A DNA stretch of 20,058 nucleotides, from the IMG/VR virus record IMGVR_UViG_3300042365_000054, positions 1 to 20,058 of that record; one strand, written 5' to 3'. The notes under the pieces were generated by a model. The model was not told the origin of the DNA. It made no database searches and saw only the letters and a program-made list of their open reading frames with translations. Both the position numbers and the translations under genes were made by a program. Source of the DNA: a virus. Shown here piece after piece: positions 1-16,605 of this stretch (its first letter is position 1; each line of letters begins with the position of its first letter).

Positions 1-2302
1 TTATTGTGACGGTTAAGTTTTCTGAGAATGTGTTGGTGTATGACTGGATATCATTGACAGTTTGCATTAGGCCTTCCAGGAACCCGTAAGTTAGACAGGT
101 GCTGTAGAGAGAGACAGGTTCAGTTACCCCTCCGGTCGTCGTTAAGAACTCAACCGTTACGCTGTAACAGAATAGGTTTTGCTCTCCTGAGCAAGCCGTA
201 ACCACAGTATTAGATGGCCAATATCTAATCAGCCTATATGCCTTGGCTGTGCCAGGGGATGTTACGCCGGCTATAGTCCATGTGTCACTGAACCCCGCCT
301 GGTAAGGGGTTCCGTCAGAGCAACGGATGCCTTGCGATTGCGTCCGATTCCACGTTCCACTTATGGAATAAATACCAATTCCCGTGCTTGTCCACGCCGA
401 AGATGGTATTGAAGACGAAGTAAAAGCTAACCCATACCCGGTATAGGATCCTGAATCAGGGCACCTGCCTCTTGCGTAAACAGTTTTACCGGAATCTTCA
501 AGCTGCCACGTATATGTGGCCGCGACGCCTTCAGATACGATCGTCTCCTCGCCCGTGTCTGGATCAACCAGCACCCATTCTGTGTACATACCAGGGCATG
601 ATTCTTCTAGCTCCAATTCGTCGCCTGGCAGTGGCTCACCGCCTGGGCCAGTTGGGCCTGTTATCTCAGGATCAACCGGCTGATCTAGCGGGTCGGTTGG
701 ATTACTAGGTCCGTTATCAGGATTGGGCGGCGCTTCGGTCAACGGATCAGGCGTCTCGCCAGGTGGTGTTGTCTCTGGCGCATCCGGTACGTTGTATTCA
801 AGATCCTCTGGGTCTGGCAGATTAGGGTCAACATACGGATCCGTTCCTATTGGCGTCGTATTACCCGCCCGTCCCGGAATATCACACGTGAATGCGCCGC
901 GACCTGTTGGCAGCGTATAGCCAGGCGCTGTAGCGTCATTAACGATCAATGCAAGAATGCTTTGGCCAGAGCCATTGACTGGAAAGTGCGTGAGGTCAAG
1001 CTCAACAATGCCTTCGATGTTGCGATTGATGCGCTCCACTTCGTATAGATAGTCGTGCATACTAATCACATCGACATCTGTCTCACGGCGTAGCAACACG
1101 CGCACAATGTCGCCCAATGCAAGAGTGCTATTAAATGCAGCAGGGCGCACACGCAACCGCAGGTTGTGCTTGATATATCTGCGCCGCGCCGCGAAATAAG
1201 CGCCGACTTTGACTGCGTGCAATTCGTTTGTGCAGAACTGACTTAGGTCATACTGCTCGAATGGACCATTCAATGCTTGACCATCAATGCGCACCTCGGT
1301 GGTGCGGACGATTCCAATATCGCCATCTGGCTGTTGCCGCCAGATCATTTGAGCACAGATCGGCTTGCGCTCAGCCAGGGGGATGTACTCAATTTCGAAC
1401 CCATCCGGCAGGATGTCTTCTTCGGAAAAGGTATAAACCCAACTAACAGCAGCAGTTGAAATGGCGCCGCCTGCTGTTACCGGCAACCGTGGACGAAATG
1501 CCTTCTTGCCATTCTTGTCTGTGATGCGAAGCAGGAACAGAGTGGAAATCTGCTCCATCCATTCTTCAAGATTAGTCGATTGATCAAAAATGCCGTTGAA
1601 GTGAAGGCCGTTGGTATCAGTGAACTCTGCGGCATTCTCCATCTCCACCAAGTCCAGCATTGCCTCGGGGAATCGGCTGCTCTGGCGGATCAAATACAAC
1701 GCCAAATCAATCAGATTATTGCTTGAGCCAAGCGTGTTATCAAGGATGCGCGTAACTTCCATTCCATCGCGCACAAAGCAATGAACTTGCTTATCCCATG
1801 TGTCGTCACCATCAGGATGCATGTTGAGGTAGCTCAGCGTCGTCATGTTGGCATAGCTGCCACCAGTGCCGCAGAATGCCGGGCAGTCCCATGGCGTTGT
1901 GCCTGCAACGATGGTGGTCAGGTTGCCAGGTTGCCAGTTGCCGGTACGCGCATTGTAGGACTGCTGCCAGACGCCGACGCGGCAGCCGCGTTGAAACAAA
2001 TCACGCAACTGCTGTTGCGGCAGGTCGCCTTCACTGAGCACTAGTTGCAGCTTTACCGTTAGTTCATTCGTGATAGGGTTATTTTCATAGCGGCCTTCAG
2101 TGGCACCAGGGCTGACAAATGCGCCACCGATTTCACCAACACGCCTGCAGAACACAATCGGCACAGGCTCTCCTACTACGATTGAGCGCTGCCTGGTATC
2201 CAATGGGTTCTGGCCGACAGCAGCAGCTTCCTGCAGTGGCGTAACAATTAACCCCGTCTGGTATGGCAGAAGCGCAATCGGATCGGTGATGTTGCTGCTC
2301 AT
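1..2302 (-). CDS. Tail-tip / host-specificity protein (gpJ-like), C-terminus cut by window edge
   Basis: An open frame of 767 codons starts at ATG 2302 and runs without a stop off the left edge. Its ATG overlaps the stop of the preceding minor tail gene as ATGA, which fixes the start. It lies last in the tail cluster, where lambda J sits, so I infer the central tail-tip or receptor-contact protein. Residues 1-130 begin IALLPYQTGLIV and resemble the start of other large phage tail proteins. Residues about 240-450 look like the hub region of gpJ-type proteins (for example LRLRVRPAAFNSTLALGDIV). Residues about 485-565 are a Pro/Asp/Glu/Gly-rich linker. After it comes a Ser/Thr/Tyr-rich, cysteine-containing beta-type region of at least 200 residues. 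The DNA for that last part looks more AT-rich, as expected for an exchangeable receptor-binding end. The hub assignment is from memory of the family; the exact ligand is unknown. Confidence 0.8.
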   Translation of the reverse strand, partial: MSSNITDPIALLPYQTGLIVTPLQEAAAVGQNPLDTRQRSIVVGEPVPIVFCRRVGEIGGAFVSPGATEGRYENNPITNELTVKLQLVLSEGDLPQQQLRDLFQRGCRVGVWQQSYNARTGNWQPGNLTTIVAGTTPWDCPAFCGTGGSYANMTTLSYLNMHPDGDDTWDKQVHCFVRDGMEVTRILDNTLGSSNNLIDLALYLIRQSSRFPEAMLDLVEMENAAEFTDTNGLHFNGIFDQSTNLEEWMEQISTLFLLRITDKNGKKAFRPRLPVTAGGAISTAAVSWVYTFSEEDILPDGFEIEYIPLAERKPICAQMIWRQQPDGDIGIVRTTEVRIDGQALNGPFEQYDLSQFCTNELHAVKVGAYFAARRRYIKHNLRLRVRPAAFNSTLALGDIVRVLLRRETDVDVISMHDYLYEVERINRNIEGIVELDLTHFPVNGSGQSILALIVNDATAPGYTLPTGRGAFTCDIPGRAGNTTPIGTDPYVDPNLPDPEDLEYNVPDAPETTPPGETPDPLTEAPPNPDNGPSNPTDPLDQPVDPEITGPTGPGGEPLPGDELELEESCPGMYTEWVLVDPDTGEETIVSEGVAATYTWQLEDSGKTVYARGRCPDSGSYTGYGLAFTSSSIPSSAWTSTGIGIYSISGTWNRTQSQGIRCSDGTPYQAGFSDTWTIAGVTSPGTAKAYRLIRYWPSNTVVTACSGEQNLFCYSVTVEFLTTTGGVTEPVSLYSTCLTYGFLEGLMQTVNDIQSYTNTFSENLTVTI

Positions 2303-2763
2303 AGCCTGATTGGCGCTCCGACGAGCTGTGATGTGTATTTACGTGGTGGCGCCTGCGCACCAATAGGAGCAAGGCTTGACCCTAACGATACTTCCAGAAC
2401 TGAGAACGATCCTGACACGCCAACCACCTCGCCCACAAATGAACCAATCAATAGCTGACCGGACTGCGGAATGACCTGCGACAAGCGGCTATCAAACTCA
2501 TAAACACGCAGTTCAATCAGATGGTTTTCGTTTAATGCAGATTCAAACAATGAGACTGCTGCCGCAGTTGCAGGCACTGAGATAGAAACGTCCGCATCGT
2601 TGCCGACGCTGCCGCCAATCAAGCCATTGCCGACGAATGGGAAGTAACTCCATGAATTGCTTTCCCATGTCACAGTCTGCCCGACATAATACGATTGCCA
2701 GCGCAGATAGGTTGTAGCGCCGCTGTAAATTCTGAGATACTGTGACTGGGCTCTATTGCTCAT
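2299..2763 (-). CDS. Minor tail protein between tape measure and tail tip
   Basis: This 154-residue protein begins MSNRAQSQYLRIYSGATTYL and overlaps both neighbours by ATGA: the tape measure stop at 2760 and the gpJ-like start at 2302. Its slot, directly after the tape measure gene, is that of lambda gpM/gpL or of distal tail proteins, which link the tail tube to the tip complex. The sequence is mostly short beta-type stretches rich in Ser, Val and Gly, with no cysteine cluster of the kind expected for an iron-sulfur gpL. The role is inferred from position; I do not recognise a specific family motif. Confidence 0.75.
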   Translation of the reverse strand: MSNRAQSQYLRIYSGATTYLRWQSYYVGQTVTWESNSWSYFPFVGNGLIGGSVGNDADVSISVPATAAAVSLFESALNENHLIELRVYEFDSRLSQVIPQSGQLLIGSFVGEVVGVSGSFSVLEVSLGSSLAPIGAQAPPRKYTSQLVGAPIRL

Positions 2764-5120
2764 CGGACTCCTGCGTAACGACGGCCGCCGCTGGTGCGGT
2801 TGCTGCTGAGCAGTTGATTGGCGAGACCCTGAAGGCCACGTTCAAAGTCTTGCATGGTGACATAGTTCTGCCCACCTTGCTGCATGACTGGTCCCGTTTG
2901 AATGTTTACTTGTGCGGTTGCAGGTGCAACTACACCGCCCTCTGCAAAGCGTGGAATTGCAGCAGGGCCACGAACACCAGCCATCCAGTTAGCAGCAAAC
3001 GTACTAGCCTTTGATTGCGGCACGATATATTCAGGTTCGCCGCCTTCTCCAACCATCGCCAAGGTTGGTCCGCTGACAACGCCGCCTTCAGCAAAACGCG
3101 GAAGGGATACCTGCGGAACCGTTGGGATAGACGGAAGCTTCAATGCAGTCAAAGCTTGATTGGCGCCTTGAATCAGCGCATTGATTGCGTTGATTGCGCC
3201 ATTGATGGTGTTCTCAATGCCGCCAAGAATACCGTTTAACACGACTTTGATCATGTTGGCAACTGCGACAAACGGTGCTTTCAGAGCATTCGCCAGGTTT
3301 GACATTGTAGCGACGATGCTTTCGTACAACCCACCAAACCAATCAATTACTGGTTTAATGAATGTTTCATAAAGTCCTTGCGCTGCAATTTGCACCATCT
3401 GGCCAATGGCTCCAAATGCTTGTCCGATTTGATCGCGAAAGGTAAAGATCGCCACGCCCGCCGCAACAATCAATGCAATCCAGCCAACCGGCCCAGTAAA
3501 CACTGCAGCCAGGATCGGCAACAGTCCGCTCAATGCGCTGCCTACTGCGGTGACTGCAGGCACAACGGCGCCCATGTAGCCGGCAATAGTGGCAAAGATC
3601 GCACCGCCAGCAAACACGCCGCTGAGCGCGCTAAAGATCGTCATGACTGCAGTGATGGCTGGTGCCAGCAATACAAATGCAGCGGCCAATGCACCTATCG
3701 CTGCGATTGCACCCTGTAGTGGTTGCGGCAGCGTGCCAAACCACTGCGCAAAACCAGCAATGCCTTGAGCGACCTGCGTAATTAGAGGCAGTAGGGCTGT
3801 TACAGCATTGTTGAACGGACCAGCGAGTGCGAGTCCAATGGCATTTAGGGAATCATTGAATTTATCCGCAGATTGCGCCATGCCGGTATCAATCGTGGCT
3901 GCATACTGATTGATCGCCTCTCGACCACCGTTCAACATTGGGATCAGGTTGGCGCCAGACTTGCCAAATAGCTGCATAGCCAGTGCCGTCTTTTCGGCGC
4001 CATCTGGCATCTTAGAAAACTTGTCGGCAACGTCGAGCATGATCTGATCGACCGGGCGCAGGCGATTTTGCGAATCAACAGCGGCGATTCCGAGCCTCGC
4101 AAGCGCATCCGCCATGCCTTGCGATCCAGTCTCCATGGCGTCTGCCGCCCTCTTATAGTTATCTTGAATACCGCGCAGCTGTTCAGCGGTAGCAGCTTCA
4201 AGTACCCTAGCTTGAGACTTTGAGTTGTTTTTGATAATCGTTTCTTCAGCCCTTCTTCTTTCTTCAAGTGCGTCCTCTTCAAGCCTCCTAGCATCACGCA
4301 ACTGCCTATCGCGCAGCTTTTGGGCGCTGGTGAATCTCCTTTGCAGGGCGCTCAGTTCATCTTCCTCTTGCCTTTTCAAGTTATCTAAACTTCGGCTGCT
4401 TTGCTGATCAGACAATGTTTCGTCATCCTGAATCGACTGTCGCATCAGGTTGTAACGTGAGCTAATTTGCCGCTCCATTTCTCGAAGCGACTGATCAGCA
4501 GCCTCTCGCTCAACGTCGGCTTGATCGTTGTACCTATCATCTAGAAGCGTCTGCTCGCTTCTATATCTCTTGTTGAGTTCGCGCAGCCTCGAATCTGTTT
4601 CGTTTTGCAACGCATCGAGCCGCTCTATGCCTTGCGCTTTAACAAGTTCGGTTTGTTCGCGCTCGCCTCTTTTAATTGCCTCTAATGCGGATTCGCTGGA
4701 TGCTTTGACTTTCCGCGCGTATTCGTCAGAGCCAGATGTTGCGGCGACCAAGCCCTTGCTCAACTTGCCCAATGCTTTGCCGACTTCTTCGACACTACTG
4801 CCACTGTCAGCAGCAGCAGCACCGAATCGGCTAAGAATGGGAACAGAGACGCCAGTGCGCTGGTTTAGATCGTTCAGATTGTCCGCGGCATCGATCGCAT
4901 TCTTCCCCAGCGCCAAAAGGCCTCCAATCCCCGCTGCTGGAATCAACGCACCAAGGGCGCCACTTAGGCCGCCGGCTACTCCTTTAATGCGGCTAAGCGC
5001 GCCCCCTGTTTCTTTGGCTTGTCTTTCAGTATTACTTAGCGCTTTGACTAAGTCATTGATCTCGCCAAGGCCGTCGACGATGGCCTTAATCCTGATGGCA
5101 GCATCCATGTTTAAGGCCAT
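2760..5120 (-). CDS. Tape measure protein with a long coiled-coil segment
   Basis: A 786-residue protein that would set tail length and be ejected with the DNA. Residues 330-400 carry the pattern typical of phage tail tape measure proteins: LGI, then RPVDQIMLDVADKF, then LFGKSGANLIPML. Residues about 133-328 form a highly charged Arg/Glu/Gln-rich segment that should be coiled coil. Residues about 465-560 are a long Ala/Ile/Val-rich hydrophobic stretch with several possible membrane segments, also normal for this family. The C-terminus has two copies of PRFAEGGVV (residues 674-682 and 723-731) with MVGEGGEPEYIVPQSK between them, a frequent tape measure ending. At about 1.5 angstrom per residue the tail would be near 120 nm; this is a rule of thumb. 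ATG 5120 lies just after the chaperone stop at 5123; ATG 5108 is an alternative start. Confidence 0.93.
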   Translation of the reverse strand: MALNMDAAIRIKAIVDGLGEINDLVKALSNTERQAKETGGALSRIKGVAGGLSGALGALIPAAGIGGLLALGKNAIDAADNLNDLNQRTGVSVPILSRFGAAAADSGSSVEEVGKALGKLSKGLVAATSGSDEYARKVKASSESALEAIKRGEREQTELVKAQGIERLDALQNETDSRLRELNKRYRSEQTLLDDRYNDQADVEREAADQSLREMERQISSRYNLMRQSIQDDETLSDQQSSRSLDNLKRQEEDELSALQRRFTSAQKLRDRQLRDARRLEEDALEERRRAEETIIKNNSKSQARVLEAATAEQLRGIQDNYKRAADAMETGSQGMADALARLGIAAVDSQNRLRPVDQIMLDVADKFSKMPDGAEKTALAMQLFGKSGANLIPMLNGGREAINQYAATIDTGMAQSADKFNDSLNAIGLALAGPFNNAVTALLPLITQVAQGIAGFAQWFGTLPQPLQGAIAAIGALAAAFVLLAPAITAVMTIFSALSGVFAGGAIFATIAGYMGAVVPAVTAVGSALSGLLPILAAVFTGPVGWIALIVAAGVAIFTFRDQIGQAFGAIGQMVQIAAQGLYETFIKPVIDWFGGLYESIVATMSNLANALKAPFVAVANMIKVVLNGILGGIENTINGAINAINALIQGANQALTALKLPSIPTVPQVSLPRFAEGGVVSGPTLAMVGEGGEPEYIVPQSKASTFAANWMAGVRGPAAIPRFAEGGVVAPATAQVNIQTGPVMQQGGQNYVTMQDFERGLQGLANQLLSSNRTSGGRRYAGVR
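2928..3101 (-). repeat. Duplicated PRFAEGGVV coding motif in the tape measure C-terminus
   Basis: Two copies encode the identical nonapeptide PRFAEGGVV, at 3101-3075 and 2954-2928, 49 residues apart. The nucleotide copies differ at synonymous positions, so this is a conserved protein motif repeat and not a recent DNA duplication. Similar glycine-rich motifs near the end of tape measure proteins are common. Confidence 0.7.
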
Positions 5121-6765: not shown

Positions 6766-6901
6766 CGCTTAATTCCTCAGCTTGAGGGTTGAGAGGTTGC
6801 GCCGGTTCGGTTCGCTCAGTGAGCTTGCGCTTGCCGGTTTCTGGGTTCAGCAGATAGGAACCGCCTTGCCCTTGGTATTCATCAGTCATCATAGCCGTCA
6901 T
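6728..6901 (-). CDS. Small (57-aa) tail-cluster protein of unknown function
   Basis: ATG 6901 overlaps the TGA of the gpU-like gene (ATGA), and TAA lies at 6728, so the end of the gene overlaps the start of the major tail gene in another frame. The product starts MTAMMTDEYQGQGGSYLLNP and continues ETGKRKLTERTEP, then a Pro/Ala/Glu-rich tail. The GQGGSYLLNPETGKR-type motif is one I associate with small proteins found near tail genes in other siphoviruses, though I cannot name a family. It fills what would otherwise be the only sizeable gap in the tail block. Function unknown; a head-tail or tail-tube accessory role is only a guess. Confidence 0.75.
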   Translation of the reverse strand: MTAMMTDEYQGQGGSYLLNPETGKRKLTERTEPAQPLNPQAEELSDGSADPETPAAR

Positions 6902-7326
6902 GCTGTTGTCAGATTACTGACGCCGGTGCGATACCTGATCAGGTAACCACAGCTGATCACACCTGCTGGCTGATCAGCTTCGACCATTTCAAAATTGACC
7001 GACTGCGGCTGCACATCGATGGCATAGCCATTAAGCGTCAGATCCGCCATCAGCTTACTGTGCAGGCTTTCAATGATCGGATCAGCCTGCTGATCTGGCA
7101 CGTTGCCACGCACGATCACAGCGATCCGTACCGTCAGGCTCCAGTCCAGCGTGGGGAGGCTGGTGTTCTGCTCAGCTGTGTCGTTGATGGGTTCGATCAC
7201 GATGGCCGGGCTTTCACCCCTTGTTAGCGGCTCCACCCTGCTGCGGTAGATGCGCGTGCTGACGCCAGTGGTACCTGCCAGCGTTGTAGCGATCTGAGCC
7301 AGGATTGATTCGCGCTTGGTTGTCAT
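6898..7326 (-). CDS. Tail terminator / minor tail protein, gpU-like
   Basis: Starting at ATG 7326, which overlaps the previous stop as ATGA, the product has 142 residues and begins MTTKRESILAQIATTLAGTT. An upstream in-frame start at 7353 would add nine residues but lacks this coupling. The pattern (N-terminal helix, TRIYRSRVEPL, SPAIVIEP, a central beta strand LTVRIAVIVRG, then a helix LHSKLMADL) is typical of small gpU/gpZ-like tail completion proteins. These cap the tail tube and provide the surface that joins the head. Its place two genes before the major tail protein supports gpU. Confidence 0.8.
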   Translation of the reverse strand: MTTKRESILAQIATTLAGTTGVSTRIYRSRVEPLTRGESPAIVIEPINDTAEQNTSLPTLDWSLTVRIAVIVRGNVPDQQADPIIESLHSKLMADLTLNGYAIDVQPQSVNFEMVEADQPAGVISCGYLIRYRTGVSNLTTA

Positions 7327-7961
7327 GCTGACGCCACCTGAACCACTGTGCAAATGATGCCTGGGATGCTGGGATGCGTGGGAGTGCTGCCACCTGGCTC
7401 TGCGTGGATATAGGCGGCAACGTTGGTCGTTGACCAGATCAGCTCGATGTAGTCGTTGGTGGTCAAGCCCAGCACGAAGTTCACTGTTCCGATCACGTTG
7501 CCATCAACGCCGCCGTGCCTTGAGATGATGCTAAAGCGGCTGTCACTGGCAGGCACATCACCAAGGCTGCCTGCGTTGTTCTTGCGAAGCCAAACGTTGA
7601 TGTCGTGGATCTGAGCGTCGCTATTGCTGAACTGGATCGAGAAGGTGAAGCTATAGATGCCCGGATGATCAACAGTGATCTGGCCATCTGAAATGATCCT
7701 TACACCACGACTGGCTGTGTCTGATTGCCGCAGCTTGATGGGATAGGCCGTGTTGACCAGGGTTGCTACCTGCGAGGTTTCATCCCAGAAGGATCCCCAG
7801 TACCCAGGACAGCCGTGATACGGCAACTTGTCCCATGAGGATCGTCCATCGCCAATCTTCAGATTCTTGGTGTCGCTTTCAAGGCCAGGTTCTCCCGCCA
7901 TCAGCACAGGATTCAGCGATGCCCACTGGCTGCGAGTGTTGACCTTGAAAGGACCGCTCAT
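7323..7961 (-). CDS. Adhesin-like protein: Mtd N-terminal-type domain plus C1q/TNF-like jelly roll
   Basis: A 212-residue protein. Residues about 8-48 read QWASLNPVLMAGEPGLESDT followed by LKIGDGRSSWDKLPY. This is the short repeat-like domain at the start of the Bordetella phage major tropism determinant (Mtd) and of many phage fibre proteins. Residues about 52-210 look like a C1q/TNF-type beta jelly roll: SGQI-like ISDGQITVDHPGIYSFTFSI, then a strand NVWLRKNN, then NDYIELIW. Such folds usually form trimers that bind receptors or surfaces. The gene is unusual in sitting between the gpFII-like and gpU-like genes, with ATGA overlaps at both ends. It may decorate the capsid, neck or tail top; host binding is inferred from the folds only. 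Confidence 0.8.
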   Translation of the reverse strand: MSGPFKVNTRSQWASLNPVLMAGEPGLESDTKNLKIGDGRSSWDKLPYHGCPGYWGSFWDETSQVATLVNTAYPIKLRQSDTASRGVRIISDGQITVDHPGIYSFTFSIQFSNSDAQIHDINVWLRKNNAGSLGDVPASDSRFSIISRHGGVDGNVIGTVNFVLGLTTNDYIELIWSTTNVAAYIHAEPGGSTPTHPSIPGIICTVVQVASA

Positions 7962-8236
7962 GTCTTCTGCAGTGCGATTTCAACAAACTTGCCGTCGCTG
8001 ACAAGCATCGTCTCTCTCACGGTGTAAGCAGTCCCATCCACGGTAATTGAATCGCCGCGAACGAGACTGCCGAAGTTAGAGAATCTGGCAGTCAGCGTGA
8101 AGTCAGTGGTGAGCACCATTCCATCGCTGATTACCTGGCTTGGCATGTCCAGGATGCCTTTAGCCGTAATGGCGCCAGCCGTACAGGTGACGCCAAAATC
8201 AGCCAAGAACCCATCCAGATTCTCTGTGAACGCCAT
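7958..8236 (-). CDS. Head-tail joining protein, gpFII-like
   Basis: This 92-residue protein begins MAFTENLDGFLADFGVTCT and ends SDGKFVEIALQKT. It has the pattern of small gpFII-type joiners: an N-terminal helix, a strand-rich middle, and a DSITVDGTAYTVRE hairpin. Such proteins bind the bottom of the portal/gpW complex and let the tail attach. The start overlaps the preceding stop as TGATG, and the stop overlaps the next gene as ATGA. The family call is by size, order and the DGTAYTVRE motif. Confidence 0.8.
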   Translation of the reverse strand: MAFTENLDGFLADFGVTCTAGAITAKGILDMPSQVISDGMVLTTDFTLTARFSNFGSLVRGDSITVDGTAYTVRETMLVSDGKFVEIALQKT

Positions 8237-8625
8237 CAGCTGTACTTCTTGGAGCCGAGGGCCTGCACCGACACAGCACCAGTGCCGCTGCCACCGGTCA
8301 CGGTGAAGAGCACGCGAACGTAACGACGCAGGTCGTTGCTGTCCAGGTAGATCTTCTGACGGAATGCGGTGTTAGCAGCAGCAGCAGTGAAGCCGCCACC
8401 GGTCACATCAACGAAATCACCGGCAGTGGTGGTGTTGCTGTGTTGGATCTTGGCGGTCAGGGTGACGCCAGAGCCAGCGGCAGCAGCATCAATGATGAAG
8501 GCGACATCACCTTCGTAATCCACCAGATCAACGTTGGCGGGGGTGCCAGCGCCTGTGGCGGACACCACTGCGTTGTTGTGAATGCTCAGCAGATCGGTCT
8601 TAGAACCGAGGTTGTGGATGGTCAT
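8236..8625 (-). CDS. Capsid decoration-like protein
   Basis: A 129-residue protein with a Gly/Ala/Thr/Val-rich beta pattern: DLLSIHNNAVVSATGAG, TLTAKIQHSNTTTAGDFVDV, then SNDLRRYVRVLFTVTGGSGT, ending QALGSKKYS. The layout of variable loops followed by a conserved RRYVRV strand is common in small proteins encoded just after HK97-type capsid genes, where they are often annotated as hypothetical or as head decoration proteins. ATG 8625 overlaps the preceding stop as ATGA and has GGAGG about 8 bases upstream. That is one of the clearest Shine-Dalgarno sites in the window and would suit a protein needed in capsid-like copy number. Function inferred. Confidence 0.72.
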   Translation of the reverse strand: MTIHNLGSKTDLLSIHNNAVVSATGAGTPANVDLVDYEGDVAFIIDAAAAGSGVTLTAKIQHSNTTTAGDFVDVTGGGFTAAAANTAFRQKIYLDSNDLRRYVRVLFTVTGGSGTGAVSVQALGSKKYS

Positions 8626-8830: not shown

Positions 8831-11197
8831 TCAGAGGGTGTCGTTGCCGCGGCTGAAGGATTCAGGGTGGCGAACGGCGATGTCCACATCCTGCATTGCA
8901 ACCACGCGGACGGTGCCGGAGGTGCTGTGGGTGTAGGGGTCAACCATCAGATCCAAGCCAGAGAAGTAGCCAATGATTAGATCAGCAAAGTTGCCGAACC
9001 ACAGATCACCAGATTCAACTTGGTTGGACAGCACACCGCGGTAGCCGTTCACCTCGTTGCCTTCCATGACGAACAGGCCGGAACCTGCGTCCTTGGCCTT
9101 GGTCTTGAGACCGCCGCGCATAGCAGCGTTCATCAGGTAGACGGGGCTGCCGAGCAGTGCGTTGGCGGTTGCCACGTCGCTCTCCAGTGCCACCACCTCA
9201 GCGAATGTGGGGATTGCAGCGGCGAAGTTCTCGGTGCCGATGCCGGTGGTCAGCTTCAGGCCAAGGGGCTCACCGTTGGAGCCAGTGCCATAGAGACCAG
9301 CCAAGTCGATCTTGAGTGCCAGCACACGGGCCAGATCGCTGCGCACCATGTTCTCCACATCAATGGAGGACTGGATCATCAGGCGACGGCTGTAGTCGGT
9401 GAAGGCCGCAACAGTCTTAGGGGTCAGGCTGACCTGATCCACAGTCTGCTGGCTCTCGGTGGGCGAGCCGGATTCAGCCACCCAGTAAGCGGTACCAGCG
9501 CCGGACTGGCGGGGGATGGCAACGTTGCCGGTCAGGCCGGTCAGCACGGTGGCGCCAGCTTGATCCAGAGCGGATGCATTGCGCAGCAGATCGATGAAGC
9601 TGCCGGCATCAAGCTCAGTGGCCACCAGGTTGCCACCAGCGGTTGCAGCGCCAACGGTCAGATCACGGCGCAGCACATCCTGAGGAATGGTGATGCCACG
9701 GGACTGGCGGCCGAGCTTGGCAGCAGCAGCATCAGATGCCTCGATCTCGAATGCAGCAGCATCACGAGCCGAGCGATCGGTTGGGTTGGCCAGATAGTTG
9801 ATGGCACGCAGGAAGGAGAAGCTGCGGCTCTCCTTCTCGGTGAGGCCGATTTCAGCGGCGCTCATGGTCACAGGCTCCTGTTTGATGTCGAGTTTGTCGA
9901 GCACAGCAGCGCGAGCCTCGTCGATAGAACGACCAGACTCGATCAGCTGGCGGCCGAGATCGGCCATGTTGTGCTTGTCGCACAGTGCAGAAATGCCAGC
10001 GATGCGGGAGCGCTCAGCCTCAGCGGCTTCGGCCCGCACCACGGCCAGATCAGTGGTGGTGTTTTCCATTGAAGGAATGGGATCGGGTGTTGGTGCTGCC
10101 GGAGCAGCGGACTCGGCCTCAAGGGCTCGGCCAATGCCGACGCCGGGATCAGCCGGCACCGACACAACCGAAACCTCATAAGGAGACCAGGCAGTAGCAA
10201 CAAAGTCGCCGCTGCCGCGTTCCTCCATTTTGTCAATGGAGTAACCAAAGGAGACGTTTCGTAGAACGCCATCCTTGACATCGCTCAAGACTTCCTGAGC
10301 GAATGGGTTGCGGCTGAACCGCACTCGAGCGTAACCGCGTCGTTTCTTGCCATCGATATAGGCGCGTTCAACAACACCAATCACGCGATCAGGGTTGTGG
10401 TTGAACAGCAGCGGTGCGCCATCGTTCAAGCGGCTGAGATCAGCAGCCTTGATGTCATGGCTCAGAATCTCGTTGCCGAAGTAACGGGCAACAGGAAACT
10501 CAGAGCTGAAGGGGAATTCATAGGTGCGATCCTCCACCTCATCGAAGGTGGTGAGCTCTGCACGCTGGTGGCGACCGATGCCGGGCATGGTGCGCTCCTC
10601 GCCAGTGGCCTCCTCAAACATGATGGGATCCATCTCGTTGTCAGCCAGCCATTGCCGTGCCTCGTCAGGCGTGAACTGCTGCGCATCGAACCGCACTGCT
10701 TGAATCTCGCTCTCGCCTTCCTTGATGCCATAGATGAAATCAACGCCTTCACCACCAGCGTTGTTCTCACGACGCAGTTCGTCGTACTGATCGGGGTCAG
10801 TCATACGGGCAGCGTGCTCATTTGGATAAGGCCGCGCCTCTTCCATCTTTCTATCCTGCAATGCCTTGATTCTATCGGCCTTTGCGTTAGCCCAACTCTG
10901 ACCGGGATCGCCGCCCCATGCCGCCCATGCAACGCGGCCGGGTGATGGGTATCCATCCTCATCAGGGCTAAAGCCTTCGCCCTGCTTGTCAACCTCATGG
11001 CGCGCAAACCATGCCGCCATCGTGATCACAGTGTCGGCGCTCAATTCATCACCGCTCAGGATCTGACGCGCTCTGGCCGCGGCCACTTCAGTGCCGCCAG
11101 CTTCGCCATCATCCTTCCAGTCGCGGTAACGCTGCGCCTCTTCCCTCATGCCATCAGTTGGCATCAGGTCGATCTGCTCGCCAGCAACGATTGCCAT
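8831..11197 (-). CDS. Prohead protease fused to HK97-type major capsid protein, with extra N-terminal domain
   Basis: A single 788-residue frame. Residues about 15-105 form a compact domain with GGTEVAAARARQILSGDELS, FARHEVDK and WAAWGGDPG, seen in various phage proteins but without a role known to me. Residues about 165-200 contain RFDAQQFTPDEARQWLADNE. Residues about 222-360 are a caudoviral prohead protease: candidate catalytic His267 in LLFNHNPDRV and Ser316 in NVSFGY, with YEVSVVSVPAD following. Residues about 383-445 are helical and delta/scaffold-like. Residues about 450-788 are the HK97-fold capsid protein (GGNLVATELDAGSFIDLLRN, then IPRQSG, then YGTGSNGEPLGL). Protease, scaffold and shell subunit are therefore made together and presumably cut during maturation. 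The start overlaps the portal stop as TGATG. A possible internal start lies at 9865. Confidence 0.9.
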   Translation of the reverse strand: MAIVAGEQIDLMPTDGMREEAQRYRDWKDDGEAGGTEVAAARARQILSGDELSADTVITMAAWFARHEVDKQGEGFSPDEDGYPSPGRVAWAAWGGDPGQSWANAKADRIKALQDRKMEEARPYPNEHAARMTDPDQYDELRRENNAGGEGVDFIYGIKEGESEIQAVRFDAQQFTPDEARQWLADNEMDPIMFEEATGEERTMPGIGRHQRAELTTFDEVEDRTYEFPFSSEFPVARYFGNEILSHDIKAADLSRLNDGAPLLFNHNPDRVIGVVERAYIDGKKRRGYARVRFSRNPFAQEVLSDVKDGVLRNVSFGYSIDKMEERGSGDFVATAWSPYEVSVVSVPADPGVGIGRALEAESAAPAAPTPDPIPSMENTTTDLAVVRAEAAEAERSRIAGISALCDKHNMADLGRQLIESGRSIDEARAAVLDKLDIKQEPVTMSAAEIGLTEKESRSFSFLRAINYLANPTDRSARDAAAFEIEASDAAAAKLGRQSRGITIPQDVLRRDLTVGAATAGGNLVATELDAGSFIDLLRNASALDQAGATVLTGLTGNVAIPRQSGAGTAYWVAESGSPTESQQTVDQVSLTPKTVAAFTDYSRRLMIQSSIDVENMVRSDLARVLALKIDLAGLYGTGSNGEPLGLKLTTGIGTENFAAAIPTFAEVVALESDVATANALLGSPVYLMNAAMRGGLKTKAKDAGSGLFVMEGNEVNGYRGVLSNQVESGDLWFGNFADLIIGYFSGLDLMVDPYTHSTSGTVRVVAMQDVDIAVRHPESFSRGNDTL
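9863..9879 (-). promoter_or_regulatory. Possible internal ribosome binding site and ATG for the capsid domain
   Basis: Within the protease-capsid gene, AGGAG at 9879-9875 lies 9 bases before an in-frame ATG at 9865 (Met445). Initiation here would give a 344-residue protein beginning MSAAEIGLTEKESRSFSF, just the capsid subunit. The spacing is slightly long and the match could be chance. It would let the phage make more shell protein than protease. Confidence 0.35.
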
Positions 11198-15915: not shown

Positions 15916-16605
15916 TCATCGCGCGGTCGCGATGGCTTTGTCGAGCGCAGCACTAAGCATGTCGTTGAAGTTGCGCTGCACGATCTTCTCGCCGATGTCT
16001 TGAATGGGGAAGCGGCCTGTGTAGCGCGGTGCTGCTGATGCTGCGATGAAGTAGGGGAACAGCTGCTCGCGTGAGCGGCGATAGATGCCAGGCGGTCTGT
16101 TGCCGCCCTTTGGTGTGCCAACGAAGAAGCCGCCGCGCTTGTTGGTGGTGCTCAATCCTTTGCTGATGGATCGCAGGGTTGCGAGGCTGACGTTGCCTGC
16201 GTCTGTGATCTTGACCAGGGAGGTGGGTACCAGGGCGGTGCCCGGGGCGAGGGTGCCGTCGTTGTCAACACCAGCGAAGTAGCGCTCAAAGCCCTTGGCT
16301 ACACGCTGGCCACCTTGGATGCCATAGCGGAGATAGCGGGCACGGTTGCGGCCCTCTTGGTTGTTGGCGAAGACGTAGGCGGTGAGGTCGGCCTTCTTTG
16401 ACTTCTGGACGAGGAAGGCGGACTGGGTGAACTTGACGGGTGAGTGGAAGTATTGCCGGGTTGCGCCGTTGAGAGAAGTGCGTGCCTTGAAGGCCACGTC
16501 GTTGAGCGCGACTGACGTGGCAAAGGGCAGTTGCTTGGCGACGGCAGCAGACCATCGCGACGCCTGCTGCAGGCCCTGCTGATCGATCTCAAGGGTGATG
16601 GCCAT
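15916..16605 (-). CDS. Minor tail protein, gpZ-like (displaced position)
   Basis: A 229-residue protein beginning MAITLEIDQQGLQQASRWSA. The segment AVAKQLPFATSVALNDVAFK, followed by a basic stretch and KFTQSAFLVQKSKKADL, resembles the opening of phage minor tail protein Z: a helix, an A-x-N-x-V-A core, then a basic region with a KADLTAYVF strand. Gly-rich RYGIQGGQRVAKGFERY and FFVGTPKGGNRPPGIY follow. Proteins of this group help complete the tail top before head joining. Lambda Z lies between FII and U; here the gene lies upstream of the small terminase, behind the replication genes. I see no good Shine-Dalgarno before ATG 16605. Family call moderate. Confidence 0.62.
   Translation of the reverse strand: MAITLEIDQQGLQQASRWSAAVAKQLPFATSVALNDVAFKARTSLNGATRQYFHSPVKFTQSAFLVQKSKKADLTAYVFANNQEGRNRARYLRYGIQGGQRVAKGFERYFAGVDNDGTLAPGTALVPTSLVKITDAGNVSLATLRSISKGLSTTNKRGGFFVGTPKGGNRPPGIYRRSREQLFPYFIAASAAPRYTGRFPIQDIGEKIVQRNFNDMLSAALDKAIATAR

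Follow-up and report, generated by a model that had tools for sequence, protein, structure and literature searches.

Between the genes for an FII-like head-tail attachment protein and a gpU-like tail terminator, a viral DNA of 20,058 nucleotides (IMG/VR record IMGVR_UViG_3300042365_000054, here called the window) carries a gene for a 212-residue protein in which an Mtd_N domain is followed by a predicted C1q/TNF-like jelly roll, and relatives keep, replace or lack this gene at the same site. From these observations we infer, with a probability of roughly 55%, that the protein is an accessory adhesin of the virion, a trimer anchored through Mtd_N on the head-neck side with its jelly roll turned outward onto a glycan or slime of the host surface.

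The gene encodes an Mtd_N domain and a predicted C1q/TNF-like jelly roll

The open reading frame runs on the minus strand, as do the structural genes of the window, from an ATG at 7961 down to 7323 (the preliminary description named no strand). Residues 9-40 (7842-7937, minus strand) match the Pfam family Mtd_N (PF18454; E 3.2e-8, 33.8 bits against a cut-off of 26.3), in agreement with the Mtd-type N-terminal domain claimed earlier, and we presume this domain to be the anchor. PHROG matches of the protein cover its first 50-70 residues and come chiefly from tail fibre, tail spike and hyaluronidase families, and a profile comparison with solved structures paired Mtd_N with the N-termini of Streptococcus-type phage hyaluronidases (best match 6x3m, E 1.5e-4). 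Besides these N-termini, the sequence search of solved structures returned two weak unsupported matches only.

The remainder of the protein (residues 53-212, 7326-7805, minus strand) is the presumed binding domain. Although Pfam sequence matches alone stay below threshold there (BclA_C 15.7 of 38 bits, C1q 13.1 of 23.7), the structure predicted with AlphaFold2 (model mb780dcfef026, from 46 sequences) bears out the earlier claim of a C1q/TNF-like jelly roll. The model has a mean pLDDT of 86.0, with most of the jelly-roll part at 88 or above and block means of 57-71 over residues 1-50; it represents a monomer. Comparison of residues 51-212 with solved structures, a segment that barely covers the Mtd_N part, gave BxpB as the best match (Z 17.1, rmsd 2.4 over 137 residues), followed by BclA (Z 16.3) and the C1q heads (Z ~14). 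Phage domains scored similarly, namely 9eul (Z 15.0), cyanophage A4 9k09_A (15.0) and A-1(L) 8ke9_A (14.9), and 486 of the 1000 compared chains reached a Z of at least 8, which places the predicted model among the C1q/TNF-like jelly rolls. The A4 and A-1(L) domains share this fold with the window protein at an identity of only 13-16%, and 8ke9 is the CBD of the A-1(L) baseplate short tail fibre, unlike the window gene with its connector-block position; a literature search on the A4 structure returned nothing relevant. Matches in a viral structure library included phage proteins named C1q, collagen repeat and side tail fibre, together with many unnamed ones. A C1q fold by itself is no proof of sugar binding. 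A jelly roll of the window type is also encoded in phage genomes from spring water (L087, 11785-12570), where it directly follows a gene annotated as phage stabilization protein, again a connector-type position.

The gene is coupled to connector genes on both sides

The upstream neighbour (7958-8236, minus strand, 92 residues) belongs to the FII family by its match to PF05354 Phage_attach (37.8 bits, cut-off 26) and also matches the head closure Hc1 family phrog_82 (3.8e-4). The downstream neighbour (6898-7326, minus strand, 142 residues) is a gpU-like tail terminator that matches phrog_4204 (1e-39) and is 73% identical to S-CBS1 gp11, with the Pfam family Phage_tail_U remaining sub-threshold (13.9 of 25 bits). 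Beyond the FII-like gene lies a gene for a Bbp16-like, cement-type protein (8236-8625, minus strand; PF21190, 22.6 bits, under the cut-off of 27.1). In the same window, protease and major capsid protein form a single 788-residue reading frame (8831-11197) with about 200 extra N-terminal residues.

An ATGA at 7958-7961 on the minus strand joins the stop of the FII-like gene to the start of the gene under study, and a second one at 7323-7326, likewise on the minus strand, joins the stop of the latter to the start of the gpU-like gene. The second overlap indicates that the gpU-like protein begins at the ATG at 7326 and not at the TTG at 7353 that opens the longer reading frame. The location between these two genes with ATGA overlaps, as first described, is therefore correct, and the two overlaps support the translational coupling that had been invoked for production together with the connector proteins. 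Where the gene was found in relatives, the upstream ATGA was present in 98/98 slots, and the downstream junction was ATGA in 79 and ATGG in 17 of the 98. Since the collection comprises 96 distinct full-length proteins of this type, among them that of the window, and the upstream ATGA is invariant among these slots, the arrangement exceeds what chance would produce.

The slot between the FII-like and gpU-like genes is refilled and emptied among relatives

Occupancy of the slot was surveyed with queries from the gpU-like and FII-like neighbour families, to which loci collected earlier were added. In total, 142 distinct slots were obtained. The neighbour queries reached 110 of these and took the best 80 of 577 and the best 80 of 569 candidates, drawn in turn from no more than 600 stretches, so that the shares describe close relatives only. 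Slots of identical DNA were merged, and because the merging window varied slightly the number of slots with the gene is 101 or 98. Among the 110 slots, 72 held the gene under study, 15 a 109-residue reading frame and 4 an Mtd_N protein with a second, different jelly roll; 15 were empty, and the remaining 4 held long cassettes, three plain and one that includes the gene under study. In every empty slot (15/15) both neighbours were in place, with the FII-like stop and the gpU-like start joined by a single ATGA. The gene is hence dispensable, an accessory that is not needed in every relative. The 109-residue frame that stands in its place in L093 and 14 other slots is F5/8C-like at sub-threshold score.

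Nearly all of the turnover falls at this junction. The gap between the cement-type and FII-like genes is nearly invariant (0-99 b in 111/114), and that between the gpU-like and tube genes is below 200 b in 137/138; capsid-to-cement distances were bimodal, presumably from split capsid matches, and were left unused. In a tree built from both neighbours (137 rows), 21 changes of slot state were counted, where shuffling gave 39.2; for the empty state, well-supported branches require a minimum of 7 changes. Together with the near-constant flanking junctions, these changes indicate that the cassette comes and goes. Between the cement-type and FII-like genes of L105, a 2.5-kb cassette was seen (1755-4235; frames of 112, 618 and 95 residues), the sole environmental case in 114 junctions, besides S-CBS1 and S-CBS3.

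The survey of gene order that the preliminary description had called for shows that the connector-block position is real; it is not peculiar to this phage, as S-CBS1 and S-CBS3 share it. Gene order and fibre annotation for the slot are already deposited for these two isolates. No account of the slot as a site of swapping was found in the literature searched, including the available part of PMC6157547, with the original S-CBS genome paper outside the scope of the search.

Occupancy of the slot is indifferent to tail-tip type

An alternative is an ordinary tail-tip fibre whose gene drifted upstream and whose product docks on the distal tail, in the manner of other fibres with Mtd_N. The domain is widespread among tail fibres, as the mostly tail-derived PHROG families attest, the proteins behind the tail tip of relatives carry it too, and the slot occupants of the isolates are annotated as tail fiber proteins. 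We nevertheless regard this explanation as unlikely, because of the coupling to neck genes described above and because of the tail-tip modules with which the gene is found. The gene occurred with a CBS-type tail-tip module in 33 slots and with a lambda-type module in 30 (63 readable of 101). Tip type was unreadable in 47/142 slots, mostly where a contig or stretch ended, the unreadable ones comprising 38/101 slots with the gene, 3/15 empty slots, 4/15 with the 109-residue frame, 1/6 with the other jelly roll and the single long cassette with the gene (1/1). The tree of the gene itself (62 rows) shows 10 switches of tip type, no fewer than 5 of them forced by supported branches; the types are nonetheless clustered relative to shuffles (10 vs 20.8 switches).

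Relatives also have other fibre-type genes behind the tip. Among 29 whole records, all those with the gene (16/16) have Mtd_N in the slot, and 10/16 encode a further Mtd_N protein that exceeds the cut-off and lies about 8 kb downstream; where the slot is empty, an Mtd_N protein occurs downstream only, in 3/10. Eight of nine fetched stretches have a reading frame of at least 440 residues behind the tip, and the largest there in the ninth (L319) has 298. Given the two tip modules, the switches between them and the additional fibre-type genes downstream, docking at the tail tip is unlikely, and so is a role of the gene product as the sole adhesin. Optional occupancy, indifference to tip type and the separate fibre genes of relatives thus give indirect support to an adhesin on the head or neck side over one at the tail tip. 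The window itself ends inside the tail-tip gene, so that any tip fibres of its own would lie outside the stretch. About the first 628 residues of this tail-tip protein (2-2302) match isolates and the C-terminal part diverges; the latter may be a further binding region.

The length of the FII-like protein was compared across slot states with regard to docking. It has 92 residues in 15/15 empty slots, 14/15 slots with the 109-residue frame and 99/101 slots with the gene, and it is extended at its C-terminus to 140-145 residues in 6/6 slots with the second jelly roll and to 111-206 residues in 5/5 long slots. This suggests that the extension is a fibre dock in the relatives with the second jelly roll or a long cassette. 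As 99/101 gene-bearing slots go with an FII-like protein that has no extension, the extension names no dock for the gene under study. C-terminal extensions of the FII-like protein were noted in L121, L112, L131, L140 and L136, some of them fibre-domain-like to the eye.

The jelly roll evolves no faster than its gpU-like neighbour, with a mean pairwise distance of 0.222 versus 0.218, and accordingly nothing points to an arms race over a receptor. Hypervariability was considered as a sign of receptor binding and set aside, the mean per-position variability being 0.60 bits in the jelly roll and 0.59 in Mtd_N. Spearman correlations of the distance matrices were 0.06 between jelly roll and gpU-like protein, 0.12 between jelly roll and FII-like protein and 0.29 between the two neighbours; with the neighbours themselves correlating at only 0.29, we draw no inference from the two lower values.

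Isolates and other slot occupants point to fibre-type proteins

The closest head-neck DNA in the phage collection came from the Synechococcus phages S-LBS1, S-CBS1 and S-CBS3. S-CBS1 gp10 and S-CBS3 gp09, each of 202 residues and annotated as tail fiber protein, occupy the slot between the FII-like and gpU-like genes. They resemble the window protein in slot, length class and N-terminal Mtd_N (55.7 and 52.5 bits, respectively), and they differ from it in the sequence of the jelly roll, blastp similarity covering about 47 N-terminal residues. Moreover, the FII-like protein of S-CBS1 and S-CBS3 has the C-terminal extension, whereas that of the window has none. In S-LBS1 the second jelly roll follows a different N-terminus, and the junction also contains a long fibre gene and an integrase. 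A model of this second jelly roll based on five relatives from the environment (pLDDT 64.5 overall, ~80 in the domain) likewise has a TNF/C1q fold; the TNF-like lectins BC2L-C (Z 13.1, the best match) and PLTL (12.7) are among its closest solved structures.

These occupants bear on a second explanation, that the protein is a capsid or neck cement or decoration protein that stabilises the particle, its jelly roll being structural and without a binding role. Optional decoration proteins are common, a Bbp16-like gene lies nearby, and the 109-residue F5/8C-like occupant may itself be such a protein. A fibre-type Mtd_N and, as alternative occupants, fibre-like cassettes and a jelly roll that among solved structures matches lectins best make this explanation quite unlikely in our view. 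A product that is no part of the virion and works within the infected cell or beyond it, for instance a released lectin, would agree with a junction that is an insertion hot spot, taking up an integrase too in S-LBS1; strict coupling to structural genes, an anchor domain of fibre type and the fibre annotation of the S-CBS1 and S-CBS3 equivalents render it very improbable.

The slot also corresponds to that of gene Z in lambda, which sits between the FII and U positions. The preliminary description had set a normal tail-completion fold against its own reading; the predicted fold is C1q-like, and no match of the gene to tail completion families was found in PHROG or Pfam, so that membership in a gpZ/Neck1-type family is not indicated. 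A separate candidate for this role lies at 15916-16605 (minus strand), which matches phrog_1924 (minor tail, 2.6e-49) and phrog_27 (tail completion or Neck1, 1.5e-6) and has no Pfam match. Relatives of this protein were present in 22/29 records: 11/13 with the gene under study, 6/10 with an empty slot, 1/1 with the 109-residue frame, 2/2 with the second jelly roll and 2/3 isolates. The gene at 7323-7961 therefore need not fill the tail-completion role, and a protein of the lambda gpZ position that joins head and tail is hardly credible, given 15/110 slots empty with intact neighbours, the Neck1-type gene elsewhere and the predicted C1q fold.

Comparison with known adhesins

Bordetella-type Mtd carries a C-terminal C-type lectin domain and is diversified by a reverse transcriptase. 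The window protein has Mtd_N in common with it and gave no match to its second domain (PF21916) at E up to 1; a C1q/TNF jelly roll is predicted in place of the C-type lectin domain. No reverse transcriptase was named among the window genes covered by a general gene scan. In S-CBS1 and S-CBS3 the modules of Bordetella Mtd are split over separate genes. The second domain occurs in proteins annotated mtd, S-CBS1 gp07 (L082, 16844-17905; 85 bits) and S-CBS3 gp06 (L084, 13004-14164; 74 bits), which are devoid of Mtd_N, and Mtd_N is found on gp10 and gp20 of S-CBS1 and gp09 of S-CBS3.

Accessory fibres on the head-neck side are documented elsewhere. According to PMC10966104, the Anabaena myophage A-1(L) has a neck accessory fibre of three proteins (gp82/gp81/gp80) with a distal carbohydrate-binding module; a pentadecameric ring bears five such fibres, each long and shaped like a chain of beads, and the module did not bind the host. 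The likeness to the putative adhesin of the window is one of kind, an accessory fibre with a distal binding module at the neck of a phage of a cyanobacterium. Among 936-group lactococcal siphophages an optional neck passage structure occurs in 73/113 phages; in some groups it includes a carbohydrate-binding module, and one neck module bound its host, as stated in PMC6669499. By the same account, the 936-group neck protein has a BppU-like anchor and a coiled coil in ~500-900 residues, in contrast to the 212 residues with Mtd_N of the window protein. The head spike fibre of RcGTA is head-side and binds the host capsule, as described in PMC10218006, and is likened to the window protein by the head-side position proposed for the latter.

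A putative neck adhesin and its implications

For the accessory adhesin that we favour, the following course of events is proposed. The adhesin gene occupies a cassette site, flanked by the FII-like and gpU-like genes, that relatives fill, refill or empty, and ATGA coupling would have the adhesin made together with the neck proteins. Mtd_N would anchor a trimer on the head-neck side of the particle, at neck or capsid, and the C1q/TNF-like jelly roll would face outward and bind a glycan of the host, which is probably cyanobacterial, or host slime. Such binding would provide a second, reversible attachment besides that of the tail-tip fibres. Bacterial genomes gave no clue to the host: 20 stretches fit a pattern, and none of these codes for a relative. 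L086 (PQ492659.1), Limnohabitans phage DC33 of 39 kb, bears an Inoviridae label that looks like a taxonomy error.

If the protein is such an adhesin, the tail tip would not be the only determinant of attachment, and predicting hosts from tail fibres would overlook a second module. More tentatively, the slot may represent a swappable adhesin socket at the neck, an ATGA-bounded one-gene site where C1q/TNF-type lectin trimers would be exchanged or dropped independently of the tail tip and where the FII ring would be extended with other fibre types. Were this so, the head-tail junction would hold a second, separately evolving recognition point. The empty slots, those with this jelly roll, those with the other jelly roll and those with long cassettes form a natural series with otherwise matching neighbours, by which the role of a neck adhesin is testable in existing isolates.
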